From Deltaproteobacteria bacterium (lineage in GTDB: Bacteria > Desulfobacterota > Desulfarculia > Adiutricales > Adiutricaceae): DNA of 64,000 bases. The number at the start of each line of letters is the position of its first letter. The first letter of the stretch is position 1. The stretch is from assembly GCA_031264145.1 (NCBI GenBank), contig JAISEK010000127.1:37516-101515 (forward strand). The letters run 5' to 3'. The notes beneath the pieces are model-generated. The model worked only from the letters and a program-made list of their open reading frames with translations. It had not been told where the DNA came from and did no database searches. Made by a program: the position numbers and the translations under genes. Positions 2,377 through 61,282 of this stretch are shown here, piece by piece.

Positions 2377-3639
2377 CTAGCCGGCCGGCCCCGGCGAGGC
2401 CTGTTCCCTGGGGCCGGCCGTCCCTCGCCGTATAAGGGCCCTGAGCATGAAAAGGCCGGGGAGGGTCATGAAGGCCCCCAGGAGGTAGAAGCAGGGCCAG
2501 CCCAGGTGGTCGACCAGCCAGCCCGAGGGGCTGGAGAGAAGGCTCCTGGGCAGGGCCATGAGGCTGGTCAGGAGGGCGTACTGGGTGGCCGTGTAGCTCA
2601 CGTTGGTCTGGGAGGCCAGGAAGGCCACGAAGACGGTCGACCCCGCCCCCACGACCAGGTGGTCGAGGGTGATGAAGAGGGCCAGCCAATAGCCTTTGGC
2701 CGGCAGAAGCCAAAGGGCCGTCAGGCAGGCGTTGTTGGCCAGCTGGAGCCAGCCGAAGCCCCAGAGGCAGGGGACCAGGCCCCTGAGCTTGACCATGTAG
2801 CCGGAAAGGGCGACCCCGGCCAGGGTGCCGGCCAGGCCGAAGGCCTTGACGATTAGGCCGATCTGGATCTTGGAGTAGCCGGCGGCCATGAAGAAGGTGG
2901 TGTTCAGGCTGCCGATGAGCTGCTCGCCGAACTTGTAGAAGAGGATGAAGGCCAGCAGGAGAAAGGGGTCTCTCTGGGAGAAGAAGTCCTTCATGGGCCC
3001 GGCCACGCTCTCCCGGATGGTCCTGGGGGGGCCATGGGGCACGTCCGGCTCGGGGCTGAAGAGAAGGGTCAGGGGCCCGACCAGGATGAGGCCGGCCGCG
3101 ATCCTGAAGGCCACGGCCCAGCCCAGCCGGTCGGCGACGACGAGGCCGCCGCCGGCCACGGCCACCATGCCCAGCCTGTAGCCCCAGATGTAGGCGGCCG
3201 AGCCGGCGGCCAGCTCGTGGTACAGGAGATCCTCACGCCGGTAGGCGTCGACGGCGATGTCCTGGGTGGCCGACCAAAAGCTGACCGAGGCGGCCAGGAG
3301 GACCACCCTGGGCACGTCCAGGGGGCTGGCCATCGAGAGGCCGACGAGGGACATGATGAGGCAGGCCTGGCTGATGACGAGCCAGCTCTGGCGCCGGCGG
3401 CCGAGGGGGGCGAAATAGTCCAGGTAGGGGGCCCACAGGACCTTCAGGCTGTAGGGGAGGCTGACCAGGGTCAGGAGGCCTATGGTCGTCAGATCCAGGC
3501 CGCCATCCTTGAGCCAGGCCTGGACTAGGGTGATGACCACCACCAGCGGGACCCCGGAGACGAAGCCCATCAGGAAGCTGGTGGCCAGGGGCCGGGTCCT
3601 GGCCCCGGCTAGTTCTTTACCGCGTCTTCCTTCAGCCAT
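2377..3639 (-). CDS. AmpG-like major facilitator permease
   Basis: A 420-residue polytopic inner-membrane protein of the major facilitator superfamily, most like AmpG muropeptide permeases, which bring cell-wall recycling products (anhydromuropeptides) into the cytoplasm. The N-terminus FLMGFVSGVPLVVVITLVQA followed by LVSLPYSLKVLWAPYLD matches the AmpG first helices and the loop after them, and about 12 hydrophobic segments follow. It overlaps the 3' end of the ExeA-like ATPase gene by about 30 nt, so the two are probably one transcript. The overlap with a protein that may contact the envelope fits a cell-wall theme. The substrate is inferred from the family; close relatives of AmpG can differ. 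Confidence 0.8.
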   Translation of the reverse strand: MAEGRRGKELAGARTRPLATSFLMGFVSGVPLVVVITLVQAWLKDGGLDLTTIGLLTLVSLPYSLKVLWAPYLDYFAPLGRRRQSWLVISQACLIMSLVGLSMASPLDVPRVVLLAASVSFWSATQDIAVDAYRREDLLYHELAAGSAAYIWGYRLGMVAVAGGGLVVADRLGWAVAFRIAAGLILVGPLTLLFSPEPDVPHGPPRTIRESVAGPMKDFFSQRDPFLLLAFILFYKFGEQLIGSLNTTFFMAAGYSKIQIGLIVKAFGLAGTLAGVALSGYMVKLRGLVPCLWGFGWLQLANNACLTALWLLPAKGYWLALFITLDHLVVGAGSTVFVAFLASQTNVSYTATQYALLTSLMALPRSLLSSPSGWLVDHLGWPCFYLLGAFMTLPGLFMLRALIRRGTAGPREQASPGPAG

Positions 3640-5372
3640 AGCTCAGCCACGATCAGCCACTCGTTGGAGCGGTTCTTTTCCAGGATAAGGGTTCTGAGGC
3701 CTATGTTGTGGCGGAGCTTCGAGTCGTACTTGAGGGTGAACACTGCCCAGGCCCGGCCATGGTCGGTGGGGTCGAGCATGATGAGGGGATCGGAGATGGC
3801 CAGCGTGACCTCGCCAGCGCCCATGGCCTCGGACTCCAGGGTGAGCCGGAAGTTCCGGCGGGAGATGGAGACCGGCTTGCGGCCTGGCTCGAAGAAGGAA
3901 AAGCTCTCGGCGTAGAGGGCGGCCATGTCCTCGGACCGCTTGAGCCTTTGGGCGACGGTCCATTTGTCCAAAAGCGCCGCAAGGCTGGAGGCGGGCCTCT
4001 GGGGCACCGGCTCGGCCAGGTCCTGGGGCCGGCCTATCACCAGGGGCAGGACGTCCTGGGGCAGCATCGACTCGACCTGCTGCCACAGCTTGTCGGCCGC
4101 GGCCTTGGGGACGTCGTTTTCCGGGGGATAGCGGAAGATGATGGGGGTCCGGCTCCTGGGACGGCCCACCAGGTAGAGGCCCGGCTCCCTGATGTCAGGG
4201 GCGGCTATCTCGGCCTTGAGGCCAGGGCCGGAGAGGCCTCCCTGCCAGAGGCGGGCCATCCTCTGCCCGCTCTCGACGACCAGGGCCACCGTGCTCTGGG
4301 GCAGCCGAAGGATGGTCGTCGGCAGCGACGGCAGGCCCATGGACCCCTCGTCGGCCGGGTCGGCCGCCGGGGTGGCCTCGGGGCCCACTGGCTGGGGCCC
4401 GGCATCGCGGATTTCCTCGGCGGCCACGGTCTCCTCGGCCCCGTCGGGGGACGGCCACAGGAGCCAGACCATGGCCCCGACGATCAGGACAGCGGCCATG
4501 AGGGGCGGCCAGGAGCGGCCGGCCGCATGGTGGCGCTCCCGGCCCGAGCCGGCGGCGACCTTGGCCGCCCTGGTGTCGACGGTCAGGGGGTTGTCCAGGC
4601 TGGCCTTGGCCTGGATGACGTGGTTGTTGGATATCTGGCTCTTGCCGGCCGCCCAGGCGGTCATGAGGGCCTTGTCGGCCAAGGCGTTTATTTGACCAGC
4701 CAGGCCGTGGCTGTAGCTCTGGAGGGTCGTCAGGGCCTCGGTGGAAAACAGGTCCCTAGTGGCCCCGGCGGCGCCCAGGCGGAAGCGGACATAGTCCATG
4801 GTCTCGTTGAGCCCGAAGGGGACCAGCTCCACAACCTGGCCCAGCCCCTGGAGCGCCGGCGGCGGCCAGTCCCCGGCCGGGCCGGCCAGCATCAGGGAAA
4901 CCCGCCCCCGCCAGCCGGGCTCGAGGCTGGCCAGGGCCATGAGGTCGGAAGTGGTCTCCCCGTCAAGGTCCTGGGCCTCGTCCACGGCCAGCACCAGGCC
5001 CAGGCCCTGGCCCACGTACTCGGAGACGGCGTTCTGGAAGAAGCCTATCAGCTCCTCCTCCCGGGCCGATGGAGGACACTTGAAGCCCAGGCCCAGGAAA
5101 TTCAGGGCCTCCCTCAGGATGTCGCCCAGCCTGGGGGAGGGGTCAAGGACCGGGGCCATCCTGGTCGCGTCCCTGACCGCCTGGGGCAGCCTCCTGACCA
5201 GGGTGCTCTTGCCAGAGCCCTGATGGCCCCTCAGGAGCAGAAGACCAGGCAGCCTGGGGCCGGAGAGGATTTGGCAGAGATTTTCAAAGACAGTCCCCCT
5301 GTAGAAGAATTTGGCTTCCAATGTGGCCTTGAAGGGACGATCGTTTAGCTTGAAAAACTCTTCGTAATCCAT
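3609..5372 (-). CDS. ExeA/GspA-like AAA ATPase with membrane anchor and C-terminal NTF2-like domain
   Basis: A 587-residue protein. The N-terminal AAA module carries a P-loop (GHQGSGKST, about residues 49-57) and Walker B (LAVDEAQD, about 128-135), as in ExeA/GspA ATPases that help install secretion or pilus machinery through the cell wall. A single transmembrane segment follows at about 289-307 (MAAVLIVGAMVWLLW), then an acidic/proline linker. The final roughly 130 residues (LLDKWTVAQRLKRSEDMAAL ... WAVFTLKYDS ... NEWLIVAELW) look like a periplasmic SnoaL/NTF2-type fold seen in Cds6-like proteins. The start is the ATG at 5372 (MDYEEFFKLNDRPF), where ExeA homology begins; the upstream ATG at 5435 has no ribosome-binding site. 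No secretin or pilus genes are nearby, so the partner is unknown. Confidence 0.75.
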   Translation of the reverse strand: MDYEEFFKLNDRPFKATLEAKFFYRGTVFENLCQILSGPRLPGLLLLRGHQGSGKSTLVRRLPQAVRDATRMAPVLDPSPRLGDILREALNFLGLGFKCPPSAREEELIGFFQNAVSEYVGQGLGLVLAVDEAQDLDGETTSDLMALASLEPGWRGRVSLMLAGPAGDWPPPALQGLGQVVELVPFGLNETMDYVRFRLGAAGATRDLFSTEALTTLQSYSHGLAGQINALADKALMTAWAAGKSQISNNHVIQAKASLDNPLTVDTRAAKVAAGSGRERHHAAGRSWPPLMAAVLIVGAMVWLLWPSPDGAEETVAAEEIRDAGPQPVGPEATPAADPADEGSMGLPSLPTTILRLPQSTVALVVESGQRMARLWQGGLSGPGLKAEIAAPDIREPGLYLVGRPRSRTPIIFRYPPENDVPKAAADKLWQQVESMLPQDVLPLVIGRPQDLAEPVPQRPASSLAALLDKWTVAQRLKRSEDMAALYAESFSFFEPGRKPVSISRRNFRLTLESEAMGAGEVTLAISDPLIMLDPTDHGRAWAVFTLKYDSKLRHNIGLRTLILEKNRSNEWLIVAELWLKEDAVKN

Positions 5373-5950
5373 CGGTTGTTTTCCATGGCGGCTTGGTTGG
5401 CCATAGTATTCGTTAAAATCGTTATATTTTAGCATGAATTAGAAGTCTTTTCAATTTTAGATTTAACACCACGGAAATTCTAAACATATGAAAAACTTTA
5501 TGTTTTTAGTTGGTTAAAAATGACCCACTATTTTTGGCGCCCATGGGCCAGATCCTGTCTTTTGGCAATGTCAACAACTTAAGCCAATCTTGGCATCCAG
5601 TCTCGGTATCAATTACAAAAAATCAGGCGTATTGCTCCACAGTTAGCTGACCATGGACGAGCACCTTTTTTTCATATCCGAGGGTTGGACACCTTAAGCT
5701 GTTGATATTGCGCCTCCAGCGGTTGACCTGGCGCGGACGATGACCCGGCCTTCGGCGTCAGGCTGGGCGACAATGGCGCCAAAGTCTCTTGGCCGCCCTA
5801 GCCTGGCTATGGGTGCCCCTGGCCTGGCCGCACATCTGCGGTGGCTGGTGGCCGTTCCCAGGGCGCTGGCCATGGTTTCCGGGCGACACTTCCAGGGGAA
5901 AGGCCGCCCGGCGTTTCCATTCCCGCCGGGCGGCCACTGGGGGTGGGCCG
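5373..5950. other. Intergenic region with AT-rich promoter-side DNA
   Basis: No gene recognised. The first roughly 130 bases upstream of the ExeA-like gene are AT-rich and probably hold its promoter. A short repeat element occupies 5561-5711. The GC-rich stretch 5715-5950 gives only overlapping shadow ORFs (105-111 aa on plus, 86-92 aa on minus) that resemble nothing I know. Confidence 0.5.
5561..5711. repeat. MITE-like short element, copy 1
   Basis: About 150 bp bounded by imperfect terminal inverted repeats: AATGTCAACAACTTAAG on the left and CTTAAGCTGTTGATATT on the right. A related element with the same termini and some shared interior (a TCTCGGT core) occurs at 43293-43440. There is no coding capacity. 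It could be a non-autonomous relative of an insertion sequence or a remnant of one. Confidence 0.55.
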
Positions 5951-6205
5951 TCAATCCGGCTGCGTCTCGGGATCCTGCCTGCCTTTGGCCTCGCGGAGCC
6001 GCTTCCGCGCCGACTTCTCCCGTCGCCTGGCGTCAATCTCGCGCAGCCAGGCCTTGACCGGGGCCTTCCACGGCTCGCTCCTGCTAGGGATGTTCTTGAT
6101 GAGGTTCCGGGGGTTCAGGCCTAGCCGTCTCGCCAAGGCCAGGTCATCCTCGTTGAGGCGGCACTTGCGCTTTGCCTCCTGCCAAAGTTCCTCGCTGTGG
6201 GCCAA
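5951..6205 (-). CDS. Small conserved basic protein (84 aa), TTG start
   Basis: An 84-residue charged protein of unknown function. The ORF track shows only its tail inside a longer 193-aa frame. The real start is probably the TTG at 6205, because GAGGAG lies 7-8 nt upstream and the sequence before it is low-complexity. The core ELWQEAKRKCRLNEDDLALA followed by RRLGLNPRNLIKNIP and EPWKAPVKAWLRE resembles a small uncharacterised family (LNE..I..A..LGLNP..L... EPWK pattern) found in diverse anaerobes. It follows the subtilase-N-like gene on the same strand after a 100-nt gap. I cannot assign a function. Confidence 0.6.
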   Translation of the reverse strand: MAHSEELWQEAKRKCRLNEDDLALARRLGLNPRNLIKNIPSRSEPWKAPVKAWLREIDARRREKSARKRLREAKGRQDPETQPD

Positions 6206-6305
6206 TAGTCTTACTCCTCGCGGCGAGTCCGGCCAGGACTGCGGTGCCCGGCCGCACTGTGGCGCAAATGGGATAACCCCTGTCGGGGACGGCCTGCAAA
6301 GGCTC

Positions 6306-7115
6306 TCAGGGAGCCTCGTCCCCGGCTGGCCCGCCGTCCCCCGGCGTCCTTTTCCGCGGGGCCGACGGTTTCCCGAATGGCCGCATCCTGGCAATACCGT
6401 CCACCCGGCGGACGAAGGTGAACCCGGCCAGCCTGGCCAGTCCGGCCCCCGGTCCCCTGACGGGCATGAACGAGCGGCCGTCGACGTCGACGGCGTACCC
6501 GTCGATGGCCTCGAATCCCTGGTCGGCGGCAAAGGACCTGAACTGGGCTAGCGGGAACCTGTCGTCGCGGCCGGGCATCAGATCGATGGCCACCTCGTGG
6601 CAAGTGCCGTCCAGATCCAGGCCGGGCCCGAGCTTTTCCTCCGGCTCCTCGACCCTGACGATCTCGACCGAGTTCGCCTGCCACAGGGCCTGGAGGCCCA
6701 GGCCGCCGACCAGCGCCTCCGCGCCGTCCAGGCTGGCCGCGTCGATGGCCCCGCTGACCGCGAGGAATTCCCTGGAGGCGCCGCCTGGGCCGGCCGCCCT
6801 GGGGATCCTTTCCAGGAGCCGGCTGCCCAGCCGGTTCAGCCCCAGATCCTTGAAAAGGGTCTCGGGGAAGAGGCCGGGGAACGGGCACTCCCTGGGCAGG
6901 ACGACCTCCAGCAGGGCCAGATTGCCTGGACAGGCCCCTGGCGGCAGGGTCAGTATCCTGGCCCTGGCCGCCAGGAGGTCCCCCCTGAGGATGCCTCTCG
7001 GCCGCTCGGGGTCGAAGTCAGGGCCAGGGGCTGGCGGGAAATCGGGGGTGATTTCCTCTGTCTCGGGCAGCAGGGTGGCCTGGCCAACGATGATGTCGCC
7101 TATCTTGTCGTCCAT
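6306..7115 (-). CDS. Stand-alone protein resembling the N-terminal domain of S8 (IetS-like) subtilases; protease domain absent
   Basis: A 269-residue protein starting at the ATG at 7115 (MDDKIGDIIVG), which has GAGGAG five nt upstream; the ORF-track start at 7439 lies inside the neighbouring gene. The order of motifs resembles the region that precedes the catalytic domain in subtilases paired with AAA ATPases (IetS type): FPETLFKDLGLNRLGSRLLE, then a middle section, then FMPVRGPGAGLARLAGFTF and VRRVDGIARMRPF. In those proteins this region leads straight into the Asp/His/Ser subtilase domain. Here the ORF ends 26 residues later, and I see no D-H-S motifs in any downstream frame. The protein is therefore either a truncated remnant or a separate regulatory domain. 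No ietA-like ATPase is adjacent; the upstream neighbour is a DUF1703 ATPase-like protein. Family assignment is from remembered pattern only. Confidence 0.5.
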   Translation of the reverse strand: MDDKIGDIIVGQATLLPETEEITPDFPPAPGPDFDPERPRGILRGDLLAARARILTLPPGACPGNLALLEVVLPRECPFPGLFPETLFKDLGLNRLGSRLLERIPRAAGPGGASREFLAVSGAIDAASLDGAEALVGGLGLQALWQANSVEIVRVEEPEEKLGPGLDLDGTCHEVAIDLMPGRDDRFPLAQFRSFAADQGFEAIDGYAVDVDGRSFMPVRGPGAGLARLAGFTFVRRVDGIARMRPFGKPSAPRKRTPGDGGPAGDEAP

Positions 7116-56162: not shown

Positions 56163-57287
56163 ATGGAAGTGCCCATCCTGAAAATTCCCTTCGACGCCGG
56201 TGACGCCGCCGAGATTTGCCGTGAGCTGTCCGACCTTCTCCTGGGGGGACGCCTGGCCATGGGGCGGAATGTCAGAGAGTTCGAGGACTCCTTCCGGGAT
56301 TTCGCCGGCGCCGGCTTCGCCTGCGGCTGCTCCAGCGGGACGGCGGCCCTGGAGCTCATCTTCCGGGCCCTGGGCCCAGGCGGGGGCTCGGTGGCCGTGC
56401 CGGCCAACACCTTCATGGCCACAGCCCTTGCCCCCTTGGCCGCAGGGCACAGGATAATCCTGATCGACAACGACCCGGTCTATTTCCAGATGTGCCCCGA
56501 CGACCTGGCCAGAAAGATAAGGGACGACACCAGGGCGGTGGTGCTGGTCCACATCGGCGGCTTCATCTCACCCAGATGGGAGGAGGTGAAGGCCCTGGCC
56601 GAGGAGAGGGGCGCTGCCTTCGTCGAGGACGCCGCCCACGCCCATGGGGCCGAGGCGTGTGGGCGGACGGCGGGGACGCTGGGCCTGGCGGCCGCCTTTT
56701 CTTTTTACCCGACCAAGGTCCTGACCACGGCCGAGGGGGGCATGGTGACCACCTCCGACGAGGGGCTCTTCCGAAGGATCCTGGCCCTCCGCCAGCACGG
56801 CCAGGAGCGGCCAGGATCCAACGTCCACGATGGTTTCGGCCTGAACTACCGCCCCTCGGAGATCCACGCCCTCCTGGGGCTCAGGATGATGGCCAAGGCC
56901 GGGTGGATCCTGGCCGAGCGGCGCCAGGCCGCGGCCGTCTATGACCGGCTTCTGGCCGGTGGCCCCGTGAGGCCAGTGCTGCCTCCGGAGGGCCACAGGC
57001 CGTCCTACTACAAGTACATGGCCCTCCTGCCGGAAAAGAGCCGGCGGGGCGAGATAAAGCGGAGGCTCCTGGAGGAACACGGGGTTAGCCTGGCCGGCGA
57101 GGTCTACGCCACGCCGGGCCACCGGCAGCCCATCTGGGCCAAGCACCCGGAGTATCTGGCCAGGGGGATAGAGCCACTCCCCAACGCCGAGTACTGCGCC
57201 GAACACCAGGTCTGCCTGCCAATCTGGCCCGGCCTGACGCCCGAGGCCCAGGAGCACGTGGTCTGGGCCCTATCCAGGGTCCTCTGA
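56163..57287 (+). CDS. DegT/DnrJ/EryC1/StrS family sugar aminotransferase
   Basis: A 374-residue PLP enzyme of the family that aminates nucleotide sugars for lipopolysaccharide, capsule or secondary metabolites. Motifs are CSSGTAALELIFRALGPGGG, VPANTFMATALAPLAAGHRI, VEDAAHAHGAEACG, the PLP-lysine context FSFYPTKVLTTAEGGMVTTS and NYRPSEIHALLGLRMM. The sugar substrate is unknown. The last 120 bases plus the downstream leader are duplicated at 60521-60755, so this gene was the left border of the island insertion. Confidence 0.9.
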   Translation: MEVPILKIPFDAGDAAEICRELSDLLLGGRLAMGRNVREFEDSFRDFAGAGFACGCSSGTAALELIFRALGPGGGSVAVPANTFMATALAPLAAGHRIILIDNDPVYFQMCPDDLARKIRDDTRAVVLVHIGGFISPRWEEVKALAEERGAAFVEDAAHAHGAEACGRTAGTLGLAAAFSFYPTKVLTTAEGGMVTTSDEGLFRRILALRQHGQERPGSNVHDGFGLNYRPSEIHALLGLRMMAKAGWILAERRQAAAVYDRLLAGGPVRPVLPPEGHRPSYYKYMALLPEKSRRGEIKRRLLEEHGVSLAGEVYATPGHRQPIWAKHPEYLARGIEPLPNAEYCAEHQVCLPIWPGLTPEAQEHVVWALSRVL

Positions 57288-57385
57288 GGCAAGGCGTTCC
57301 CGCGGTGCTCTGGGACAAGGGAAATCTTAGCCCCCCTCGGTGGGGGAAAAAATGAAGATTGACGTTATTCTGAGGAGCCCACGCC
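57165..57385. repeat. Outer direct repeat, left copy (end of DegT gene plus start of a reductase gene)
   Basis: About 220 bases nearly identical to 60521-60755. It covers the last roughly 40 codons of the DegT aminotransferase gene, its downstream leader (GCGGTGC.C..GGGACAA) and the first codons of an FMN reductase gene (ATGAAGATTGACGTTATTCT). In this copy the reductase frame runs only to 57438 and diverges after SPR. Confidence 0.9.
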
Positions 57386-57528
57386 AGAATTATAACCATA
57401 TCGAAAAACTCTCTCCAAAAGAATATATTGGCCGATGAGTATAGTCAATCTGACCTCTATTCTTACCCGAATAATATCGGCTAGCGGCCAAGCTTCTCGC
57501 GGCCCTGAAGGGTCACGAAGATTTCCGC

Positions 57529-57830: not shown

Positions 57831-57850
57831 TCCTTGCGCTAAGGCCACGA

Positions 57851-57929
57851 AAGGGGCCTTACCCTATCGGTCCAGCATCTCCTCGCCCACTCCCTCAGGT
57901 GGAACTTGTCCAGGCAGGGGCGGTCCAGG
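57851..57929. repeat. Inner direct repeat, left copy
   Basis: About 80 bases matching 60283-60361 with scattered differences; both contain CTATCGGTCCAGC and CAGGTGGAACTTGTCCAGG. Only one arm of the long hairpin at 60257-60308 is kept here. A short AAGGCC...GGCCTT hairpin precedes it. Confidence 0.85.
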
Positions 57930-58140
57930 TTTGCAGGCCGGAGTGGCCATTAGGCCGCCGATGGCCCGCAGCAAGCCTGGCAAAACGGATCAAGAAAAAA
58001 ACTTGACAATGATTGCAGACTTTCATAATATAAAAGGCAGGAAATTGCAGATTACACACTTGTAATGGAAATATAAGAAATTATATTAATTGTTTTTATC
58101 GTTAATAACTCCAAAAGCCTAGCCGTTTCTCGGGGATGCC

Positions 58141-59367
58141 GTGAAAAATGACCGGGGACCCTCGGGCCGGAAGATGATGAAAATTACCCATATCGATTGT
58201 TTTAGCGGGCCTGGAGGAATCTGTGCGGGATTTTGCGCAGCGGGAATAGACACGCTTGTCGCGATCGAGCACGTAAAAAGCTGCGTGGACACGTATTCGG
58301 CGAACCATCCGCAAGTCCACGTTATCCACTCGGACATAAAAGAAGTCGCCTCCGACCAAATATTGCCTTTCATTCCTAGCCGTGGCGTCGATCTTGTTTC
58401 TTCAGGGATGCCATGCGAGACTTTTTCGACGGCTGGAAACAAATCTCGTTCATTTTATGATGATAGACAATTTCTTTTCCGAGAAGGAATCAGAATTGCC
58501 AAATTATCAAAAGCAAAATTAATTTTGTTTGAAAATGTTCCTGCTATTTCAACAAAAAAAGTCTCAAAAAATTCTTCTAAGCTTATAGTAGATTTAATAA
58601 TAGAAGAATTAGCACAGGAAGGTTATGAAAACTGCATTAAAGTTGTATTAAATTCAACGCAGTATGGCATTCCTCAACGACGAAGCAGGTTTTTTATTTT
58701 AGCCTGCAGATTCGCTGATTGGAAGCTTTCTTATCCTTTGCCGACTTTTTCGGGAGAGATCGACGTATCCGCAGCGTTTTCGGGTCTGCCCAAGGTGACC
58801 CCAAATACTGGGAAAGAAGCAGACGAATACACGTCGAAAAGTTCCCAATATGCGGACCTCTTGCGGGACGATAAATTTTGGCGACGAGGAACAAAAAAAT
58901 GCGACACCGTGTCCTATCAAATGCCGATGCGGCATCGGGACTGCACGTTGGAACGGTTTTCGTTGCTGAGGCCTGGGGAAAGCCTAAAAAACCTATTTGA
59001 AAGATACATAGACGAAGAACGAGTAACGTTACAATCAAGGCGCGTATTGCCCAACAAGATGTTCATTAAGCGGAATTACCGCTTAAAGCTAAACGAGCCT
59101 TCTCCCACCGTCACAAGCCATTGCCTGGATGAATTCGTCCATCCTGTCCATAACAGGGCTTTGACGGTACGGGAGTGCGCACGGCTGCAATCATTCCCTG
59201 ACTCGTACGATTTTCGCGGCGGTCCATATATCGTTCCGCATATAGATCGCGAGGTCCAGGACAAATACGAGCAGATAGGAGATGCCGTTCCGCCTCTTTT
59301 GGCATATGCCTGGGGAAAAACGATTCATCAGATATTAATGGAAAATAATAATGCCTCAGATAATTAA
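58141..59367 (+). CDS. DNA (cytosine-5) methyltransferase of a type II restriction-modification system
   Basis: A 408-residue C5-methyltransferase. Motif I IDCFSGPGGICAGFCAAGID, motif IV SSGMPCETFSTAG with the catalytic Cys, motif VI LILFENVPAIS, motif VIII YGIPQRRSRFFILACRF and the C-terminal motif X-like EQIGDAVPPLLAYAWG are all present. A variable target-recognition region lies between about residues 220 and 300. The GTG at 58141 has GGGGA nearby; ATGs at 58174/58177 (MMKITHID) fit the family length better. Codon use is much less GC-biased than the resident genes, a sign of transfer. It overlaps the endonuclease gene by 17 nt. Confidence 0.92.
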   Translation: MKNDRGPSGRKMMKITHIDCFSGPGGICAGFCAAGIDTLVAIEHVKSCVDTYSANHPQVHVIHSDIKEVASDQILPFIPSRGVDLVSSGMPCETFSTAGNKSRSFYDDRQFLFREGIRIAKLSKAKLILFENVPAISTKKVSKNSSKLIVDLIIEELAQEGYENCIKVVLNSTQYGIPQRRSRFFILACRFADWKLSYPLPTFSGEIDVSAAFSGLPKVTPNTGKEADEYTSKSSQYADLLRDDKFWRRGTKKCDTVSYQMPMRHRDCTLERFSLLRPGESLKNLFERYIDEERVTLQSRRVLPNKMFIKRNYRLKLNEPSPTVTSHCLDEFVHPVHNRALTVRECARLQSFPDSYDFRGGPYIVPHIDREVQDKYEQIGDAVPPLLAYAWGKTIHQILMENNNASDN

Positions 59368-60212
59368 AGACTATTGTCATAAAATATATATAAAAACATA
59401 TTTATCAGAAATAAAACGGCTTTCAGATACCATAAAAACGTCTAATATGGCATTAAGTAATAATAAAAGAGATGAAATTGAAACAGCCGCTCAAAAAGAA
59501 GCAATAAAATGTGCCACTCTTGAAGGCATGCGCGCCTTCGCCGAGGAAGATCCCGCTTCGATCTGGAATATGGTCTACGGCATCCACGTGCACAGAAAAA
59601 GCGGCGTAAAAGATACGGACACTATCGCCAAAATTATCGCCGCTGACCAAAGCTGGAAAAAATCAAGCGGGCATGCGTTTGAGGAAATGGTAAAATTTTT
59701 GGGCTCGGAGGCTTTGAGGAGCGAAGGAATTGAGATAGTTTTGCAAAGAGATTTAAGTTTGATCATAAAAAATAACCAATTAAACAATGAAACACGTGAT
59801 ATATCTTGGCTTAAAGGCCAAAAAAGCAATTTTGACTTGTTCGCAATTGTCCACAAGGATAACAACAATTTCTGTTTTGGTTGCCTCCAATGCAAGACAA
59901 GCATACGTGATAGGGTATCCCGCGATAGAGAACCATCCATCCATGCAGGCAATGAATAATTTTTTTTGGAGCGCGGCTATCGTTTTAAACGGCGATTTCC
60001 TTAAATTGCCAAAGTTCATTTCAATGGTCAATGGAAACGATAATCAAAAAAACGGTTGGCACGGCATGTATGTTTTTTCAAATTTACCTACACAAGGACG
60101 CATATACCCAATTGACTATAATTTTGAAAAATTCAAAAATCATGCCATTAGCGCATCATATCATTGGCTGACGCAGCGTCAGTGGATTGATTATAGCTGG
60201 GCCCCTGAATGA
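59351..60212 (+). pseudogene. BsaWI-like type II restriction endonuclease, frameshifted at a tetranucleotide repeat
   Basis: The two overlapping ORFs 59351-59959 and 59787-60212 are one gene of about 286 codons. The first part ends in FDLFAIVHKDNNNFCFGCLQ followed by CKTSIRDRVSRDREPS, a PD-(D/E)XK-type core with CKTS as the catalytic Lys region. The second part continues MQAMNNFFWSAAIVLNGDFL, then LPKFISMVNGNDNQKNGWHG and MYVFSNLPTQGRIYPIDYN. The block resembles the BsaWI/AgeI family (W/A/RCCGG-type sites), from memory. The break falls at (CCAT)3, 59933-59944; two copies would restore the frame (EPS then MQAM). In this sequence the enzyme is switched off or dead. It overlaps the methyltransferase by 17 nt and ends near a 24-bp hairpin. 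Confidence 0.78.
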
Positions 60213-60233: not shown

Positions 60234-60434
60234 TTATGTATAGCTGACATTCTCCAGCTGGACCGATAGAGAAAGGCCCCAGAAGGGGCCTTTCTCTATC
60301 GGTCCAGCGTCTCTTCGGCCCCGCTCCATCAGGTGGAACTTGTCCAGGCTGGAGCGGTCCAGGGCCTCCCTGAGCCCCAGCACGTACTCGGCCAGGTCCT
60401 CGTTGGTCCGCCCGGACATGACCGGCCCCGGCAC
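60234..60434 (-). CDS. Small ORF in the island right arm, doubtful
   Basis: A 66-codon minus frame (GTG at 60434 or ATG at 60419; MSGRTNEDLAEYVLGLREAL with DRSSLDKFHLMERGRRD after it). The first 35 residues look like a normal helical protein; the tail is translated hairpin DNA (60257-60308). The left inner repeat (57851) carries only a fragment of it. It may be a truncated gene; no family recognised. Confidence 0.3.
   Translation of the reverse strand: MPGPVMSGRTNEDLAEYVLGLREALDRSSLDKFHLMERGRRDAGPIEKGPFWGLSLSVQLENVSYT
60257..60308. terminator. Perfect 24-bp inverted repeat (bidirectional terminator-like)
   Basis: GCTGGACCGATAGAGAAAGG with CCCC, loop AGAA, then the exact reverse complement. 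It lies 45 nt after the restriction endonuclease stop. T-rich tracts are absent, so it may be a transcription barrier, a repeat end or a recombination site. Confidence 0.7.
60283..60361. repeat. Inner direct repeat, right copy
   Basis: Matches 57851-57929, including TCTATCGGTCCAGCGTCTC and CAGGTGGAACTTGTCCAGG. With the left copy it brackets the restriction-modification genes. Confidence 0.85.
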
Positions 60435-60520: not shown

Positions 60521-60755
60521 GGGATAGAGCCTCTTCCCAACGCCGAGTACTGCGCCGAACACCAGGTCTGCCTGCCAATCCTGGCCCGGCCTGACGCCCG
60601 AGGCCCAGGAGCACGTGGTCTGGGCCCTGTCCAGGGTCCCCTGAGGCAGGGCACTCCCGCGGTGCCAGGGGACAAAGGAAATCCTAGACCCCCTCGGTGG
60701 GGGAAAAAAGTGGGGGAAAAAATGAAGATTGCCGTTATTCTGGGGAGCCCGCGCC
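60521..60755. repeat. Outer direct repeat, right copy
   Basis: About 235 bases repeating 57165-57385: the last codons of the DegT gene (now a frameshifted, disconnected remnant), the leader and the first codons of the FMN reductase. A 12-base insertion duplicates GTGGGGGAAAAA. Here the reductase continues as an intact gene. Confidence 0.9.
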
Positions 60756-61282
60756 TGGAGTCAAACTCCGGGAAGCTGGCCCAGGCCGCCGTCTCGGCCC
60801 TGTCAGGGAGGAACCCGGAGGTCGAGACCTTCAGGCTCAACGACCTGCGCTATCGCGGCTGCCAGGGCTGCTTTGGCTGCAAGACCAAGGCCGCCTTCTG
60901 CGTCCTCAAGGATGACCTGGCCAGGGTCCTGTCGGCTGTGGCTGCGGCCGACCTGGCCATAGTGGCCTCGCCGGTCTACATCGGCGAGATAACGGCCCAG
61001 CTCAAGGGCTTCATCGACCGTTCCTTTTCCTGGTACAAGCCAGATTTCAAGTCCAGTTCCGAGCCTAGCCGCCTGGACCCCGGCAAGAAGCTCATCTTCG
61101 TCCTTACCCAGGGCAACCCCGACAGGGAGGCTTACGGGCGGGCCCTGGACGCCTACCTGGCCTATTTCGGGTCCCACGGCTTCAAGGCCGTCCCGTTCGT
61201 CGCCACCGTCGGGACAGACGATCTGGCCTCCGCCCATCCGGGGCTCCTCGAAGAGATCGCCGCTCTGGCCAGGGACCTGTGA
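60722..61282 (+). CDS. NAD(P)H-dependent FMN reductase / flavodoxin-fold oxidoreductase
   Basis: A 186-residue flavodoxin-fold flavin reductase. MKIAVILGSPRLESNSGKLA is the FMN phosphate loop, LNDLRYRGCQGCFGCKTKAA carries conserved Cys residues typical of iron-sulfur flavoprotein-related reductases, and ASPVYIGEITAQLKGFIDRS is the family middle motif. The track start at 60662 lies in the duplicated leader; the ATG at 60722 is preferred. An incomplete second start (first 11 codons) exists at 57352 in the left outer repeat. The gene would be restored downstream of the island by the duplication. Confidence 0.88.
   Translation: MKIAVILGSPRLESNSGKLAQAAVSALSGRNPEVETFRLNDLRYRGCQGCFGCKTKAAFCVLKDDLARVLSAVAAADLAIVASPVYIGEITAQLKGFIDRSFSWYKPDFKSSSEPSRLDPGKKLIFVLTQGNPDREAYGRALDAYLAYFGSHGFKAVPFVATVGTDDLASAHPGLLEEIAALARDL

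Follow-up and report, generated by a model that had tools for sequence, protein, structure and literature searches.

A C5-cytosine DNA methyltransferase gene and a broken restriction endonuclease gene of the BsaWI family lie side by side in the window, by which we mean the whole stretch of 64,000 nucleotides that was analyzed; the features of the locus are collected in Table 1. The methylase product is 397 aa long when counted from its ATG, and a GTG at 58141 is a possible earlier start of the open reading frame. The 5′ part of the endonuclease gene overlaps the end of the methylase gene by 17 nt. A promoter-like site stands upstream of the restriction-modification (R-M) pair, although the consensus scan, which returned 10 sites with 5.0 expected in the region, makes this weak evidence. 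Past the endonuclease gene lies a perfect inverted repeat with the look of a terminator, which was not among the sites listed by the terminator scan. Base composition sets the two genes apart from their surroundings, with a G+C content of 0.37-0.49 across the methylase and endonuclease genes and of 0.65-0.70 in the flanks.

Table 1. Coordinates of the features at the R-M locus, as positions in the window.
Feature	Position	Strand	Basis
Left long direct repeat: degT 3′ end, gap, start of reductase gene	57165..57396	+	repeat search
Promoter-like site TTGACA, 17 nt, TAATAT, upstream of the R-M pair	58003..58031	+	consensus scan, 10/12 matches
C5-cytosine DNA methyltransferase gene, intact	58174..59367	+	PF00145, E 7.7e-54, full profile
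BsaWI-family endonuclease gene, 5′ part, frame 1	59351..59959	+	PF18643, E 3.3e-9; 202 aa, early stop
CCATCCATCCAT, frame-break site; its codons belong to the conserved REPS-M/I motif	59933..59944	+	sequence; homologue alignment
Endonuclease gene, 3′ part, other frame	59943..60212	+	~89 residues; aligns to BsaWI C-terminus
Perfect 24-bp inverted repeat, 4-nt loop, terminator-like, past the endonuclease gene	60257..60308	.	repeat search
Right long direct repeat, continuing into complete reductase gene	60521..60766	+	repeat search

An earlier note on this DNA had described a BsaWI-like restriction endonuclease gene that is split into two frames exactly at a CCAT repeat and becomes continuous when one copy is removed, and all of this was borne out, with the tract and both frames found where the note had placed them. 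Frame 1 ends ...DREPSIHAGNE*, and the second frame, shifted onward by one base, has no stop before the end of the gene (...PSMQAMNNFFW...); beyond the 4-bp change, neither part is interrupted. Omitting one CCAT, for searches only, gave a 285-aa reading that matched BsaWI (PDB 4zsf) with an E value of 3.5e-88 over query residues 44-283. The match ran through the junction unbroken, with '...RDREPSMQAMNNFFW' in the query aligned to '...RDREPSMKAMEAFFW' in BsaWI. The N-terminal piece by itself clears the Pfam cut-off for RE_BsaWI (PF18643), and the two pieces are the only endonuclease matches in this genome. The homology to BsaWI covers the catalytic domain once the frames are joined, and one complete open reading frame is lacking; the endonuclease is a member of the BsaWI family as a disrupted gene only.

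The position of the break bears on what the remaining product could do. In BsaWI, the active site is made up of E92, D145, K165, and D175, the residues R169-D170-R171 have been proposed to recognize CCGG, and the W262A mutant is inactive (PMC4652773). The corresponding active-site residues are present in the window as E111, D162, K182, and D192, and the R-D-R motif is present as R186-D187-R188; all of these are invariant in a 20-row alignment and all lie upstream of the break, which falls between Ser179 and Met180 (BsaWI numbering), directly past the active-site Asp. W277, the counterpart of W262, lies downstream. The truncated product carries six altered residues (IHAGNE) after Ser196 and is missing ~89 C-terminal residues of the family. 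We infer that this 202-aa product, which keeps its active-site residues but lacks its C-terminal third, should not cleave.

The earlier note had also proposed an alignment to intact BsaWI-like proteins. The homologue set consisted of 28 loci, 25 from GTDB genomes and three from viral contigs, and in 28/28 the motif is read through in a single frame with fixed spacing. Among the 25 GTDB loci, the motif codons differ freely (e.g., CCC TCT ATG, CCT TCA ATT, and CCG TCT TTA), and none of the 25 interrupts the frame there. The CCAT copies encode Pro-Ser-Met or Pro-Ser-Ile-His, and one homologue (L023) has the codons CCA TCC ATC CAT, which amount to three CCAT copies that leave its gene unbroken and in frame. 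An expanded CCAT tract was seen in none of the homologues, nor do they keep the tract as a repeat of varying copy number. A caveat concerns the locus of a Ruminococcus draft genome (L007), in which the motif is open, but the endonuclease N-terminus (~4149) appears to be one base out of frame, as does the methylase (~3248-3253, at an A8 run), through either decay or assembly error. On viral contig L073, a pair of genes for BsaWI-like endonucleases is separated by 1.6 kb (3001-3849 and 5484-6332); their identities to the query are 43% and 35%, and the second is without the EPS motif (RDRAFSENAM).

The explanation that we favor, and hold to be probable, is that one tandem duplication of 4 bp disabled the BsaWI-family endonuclease of a horizontally acquired type II R-M pair; such an event would be enough to account for the locus. 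A type II pair of the BsaWI family would have been acquired horizontally, and one slipped tandem duplication of 4 bp would then have taken the CCAT copies from two to three inside the R-D-R-E-P-S-M codons. Loss of the frame would have silenced restriction and left the intact methylase solitary, and the loss of the endonuclease would be tolerated because modification persists. A one-off mutation was the fallback of the earlier note and is the better reading, given that every homologous locus reads through and that L007 spells the motif in a two-copy form. As for the exact join, two alternative 4-base omissions preserve the length, one of a CCAT (PSMQAM) and the other of four bases past the tract (PSIHAM); the second form, PSIHAMNNFFW in the window, is the sequence of many Bacteroidales homologues. 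The CCAT omission, though not strictly unique, is preferred as the better-supported join because it corresponds to a perfect tandem duplication, because the nearest relatives in the tree (L005 and L007; support 88/86, tree drawn open) both read PSMQAM, and because of the spelling in L007. There the codons are GAA CCA TCC ATG CAG GCT ATG, with two CCAT copies in frame, and are otherwise one base off those in the window.

With no further disabling change in the gene, the sequence fits a recent frame break, possibly with slightly relaxed constraint. Branch lengths are 0.89 for the endonuclease and 0.57 for the methylase. The resulting ratio of 1.6 was considered as a sign of old decay and rejected, since it falls inside the range of intact homologues (unbroken L015 has a ratio of 2.2). 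The window endonuclease deviates at 7 of 88 columns that are invariant in the others, whereas other rows deviate at 0-6; counted against a recent single duplication, these columns could reflect relaxed constraint of longer standing.

Three other accounts were weighed against a single duplication. The gene may really be intact and appear broken through an assembly or sequencing error or the collapse of two strains, for which one can point to a draft genome in 198 contigs, to the openness of the remainder of the gene, and to the one-base breaks in the draft genome L007, themselves possibly errors. Short-read and homopolymer errors do not usually take the form of a clean tandem gain of 4 bp, however, and we consider this account unlikely. 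The main claim of the earlier note, that a (CCAT)n repeat sets the frame and may make the gene phase-variable, is not supported by the comparison with homologues. Slipped-strand changes in CCAT would toggle restriction while the methylase is constantly on, and the presence of a tetranucleotide repeat exactly at the break, a break that is a multiple of the repeat unit, and two endonuclease halves that are otherwise intact would all agree with this. Yet the tract has only three copies, where the PhasomeIt cut-off for tetranucleotides, derived from tracts shown to vary, is five (PMC6321876), and it consists of conserved codons that homologues do not retain as a repeat and that L023 reads in frame. 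Three-copy tetranucleotide tracts are also unremarkable here because 306 kb of this genome contains them at ~29 per Mb and the window has three with 1.75 expected; in the 2.2-kb R-M stretch alone, 0.06 would be expected. The same 306 kb contains one four-copy tract and none of at least five copies, and at the genome's three other CCATx3 sites an inspection of open frames showed no comparable split. Phase variation of the endonuclease is thus quite improbable. We would expect a three-copy CCAT tract to slip only rarely, and the idea of a slow reversible restriction switch, in which a codon-derived tract within the RDREPSM motif of BsaWI-type enzymes operates while methylation stays on, is likewise improbable. 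Elsewhere in the genus, congener G003 has a (GGCA)7 tract (within L116-L135), and in the sequence sampled from four genomes no other tetranucleotide tract reaches five copies. Finally, a split working enzyme, assembled from pieces after a restart at ATG 59943 or 59952 by the stop at 59957-59959 or made by ribosomal frameshifting, has in its favor two in-frame ATGs 5-14 nt ahead of the stop and a division of active-site residues (N-part) from oligomer contacts (C-part), but it is the least credible proposal of all, with no homologue split or frameshifted at the motif, a cut within helix H7, which bears the recognition and catalytic residues, and no strong ribosome-binding site apparent.

With a single duplication as the preferred cause, the likely outcome at the locus is a solitary C5-methylase, which would probably still mark the site WCCGGW, provided that its specificity follows BsaWI. 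Avoidance of WCCGGW was considered as a trace of past restriction and set aside: the observed/expected ratio is 0.53 in the window, but the scarcity extends to congeners without the enzyme. Over this genome the ratio is 0.75, compared with 0.78, 0.63, and 0.92 in three congeners in which no endonuclease homologue was found. The scarcity is not tied to the enzyme because it is also present where the endonuclease homologue is absent, and it lends no support to cleavage at W/CCGGW.

Evidence for the origin of the pair comes from its flanks and its relatives. Long direct repeats of ~230-245 bp, each covering the junction of degT and an FMN reductase gene (PF01041 and PF03358), stand on both sides of the island and align with 93% identity over 189 bp, plus a further block of 43/46 bp. 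In five congeners, with no endonuclease homologue, degT and the reductase gene are adjacent without an R-M system and 71-1882 bp apart. Two of the five gaps contain 1.4-1.9 kb of other DNA, and G002, G003, and G005 show the empty site most clearly. The island thus has on either side a long direct copy of a target that is single in insert-less relatives. The gap between degT and the reductase is variable in the genus, with an AAA ATPase gene (PF00004) there in G001 (L063, 1667-2686) and 1.4 kb of extra DNA in G004 (L064). A second, inner repeat pair surrounds the two genes (57841-57929 and 60273-60363), and a longer copy of the inner repeat (83%) was found on contig C117 of G000 (2404-2643; L068) among transposase-like frames, as judged by eye. 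Debris of a mobile element may therefore have arrived together with the island. Neither the 97 sampled relatives nor 394 other genomes across the phylum yielded an endonuclease homologue, and the closest relatives of the enzyme occur in Oscillospiraceae and other bacteria distant from the host. Because of this distribution, the R-M island was likely acquired by transfer. A phage search with the methylase returned distant C5-methylases only (30% identity).

If the preferred explanation is right, this locus would be a clean example of a type II pair decaying to a solitary methylase by way of a single slipped 4-bp duplication. It also carries a warning that short repeats at frame breaks may be codon coincidences, as an unbroken homologue contains the same 12 bases in frame. 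With its flanking duplication, the locus also adds to the cases of insertion with long target duplication, a pattern named for R-M systems by Nobusato et al. (2000), as cited in PMC3031569.

Comparison with known systems places the locus among several precedents. Measured against that insertion pattern, the window is alike in that long, directly repeated copies of a chromosomal junction enclose its island and in having congeners whose flanking genes are adjacent without the R-M system; it is unlike in that its repeats are several per cent diverged and a second, inner repeat pair is present. The tetranucleotide phase-variable R-M genes, e.g., mod of Haemophilus influenzae, share with the window a tetranucleotide repeat at the frame break, but they have long tracts and are type I/III methylases, whereas here three copies made of conserved codons lie in the endonuclease of a type II pair. 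BsaWI itself (W/CCGGW; CCGG family, PD-(D/E)xK) aligns with the joined frames over nearly the full length and shares the active-site and R-D-R recognition residues, while the window frame breaks past the Ser179 counterpart without a full-length product. Gut Bacteroidales, Oscillospiraceae, and others also harbor BsaWI-like R-M pairs (L005-L029), which have the same order of methylase then endonuclease. Their methylases are 65-71% identical to that of the window (to 77% in the pieces from L007) and their endonucleases 47-64%, and they differ from the window in keeping the endonuclease frame intact at the motif.
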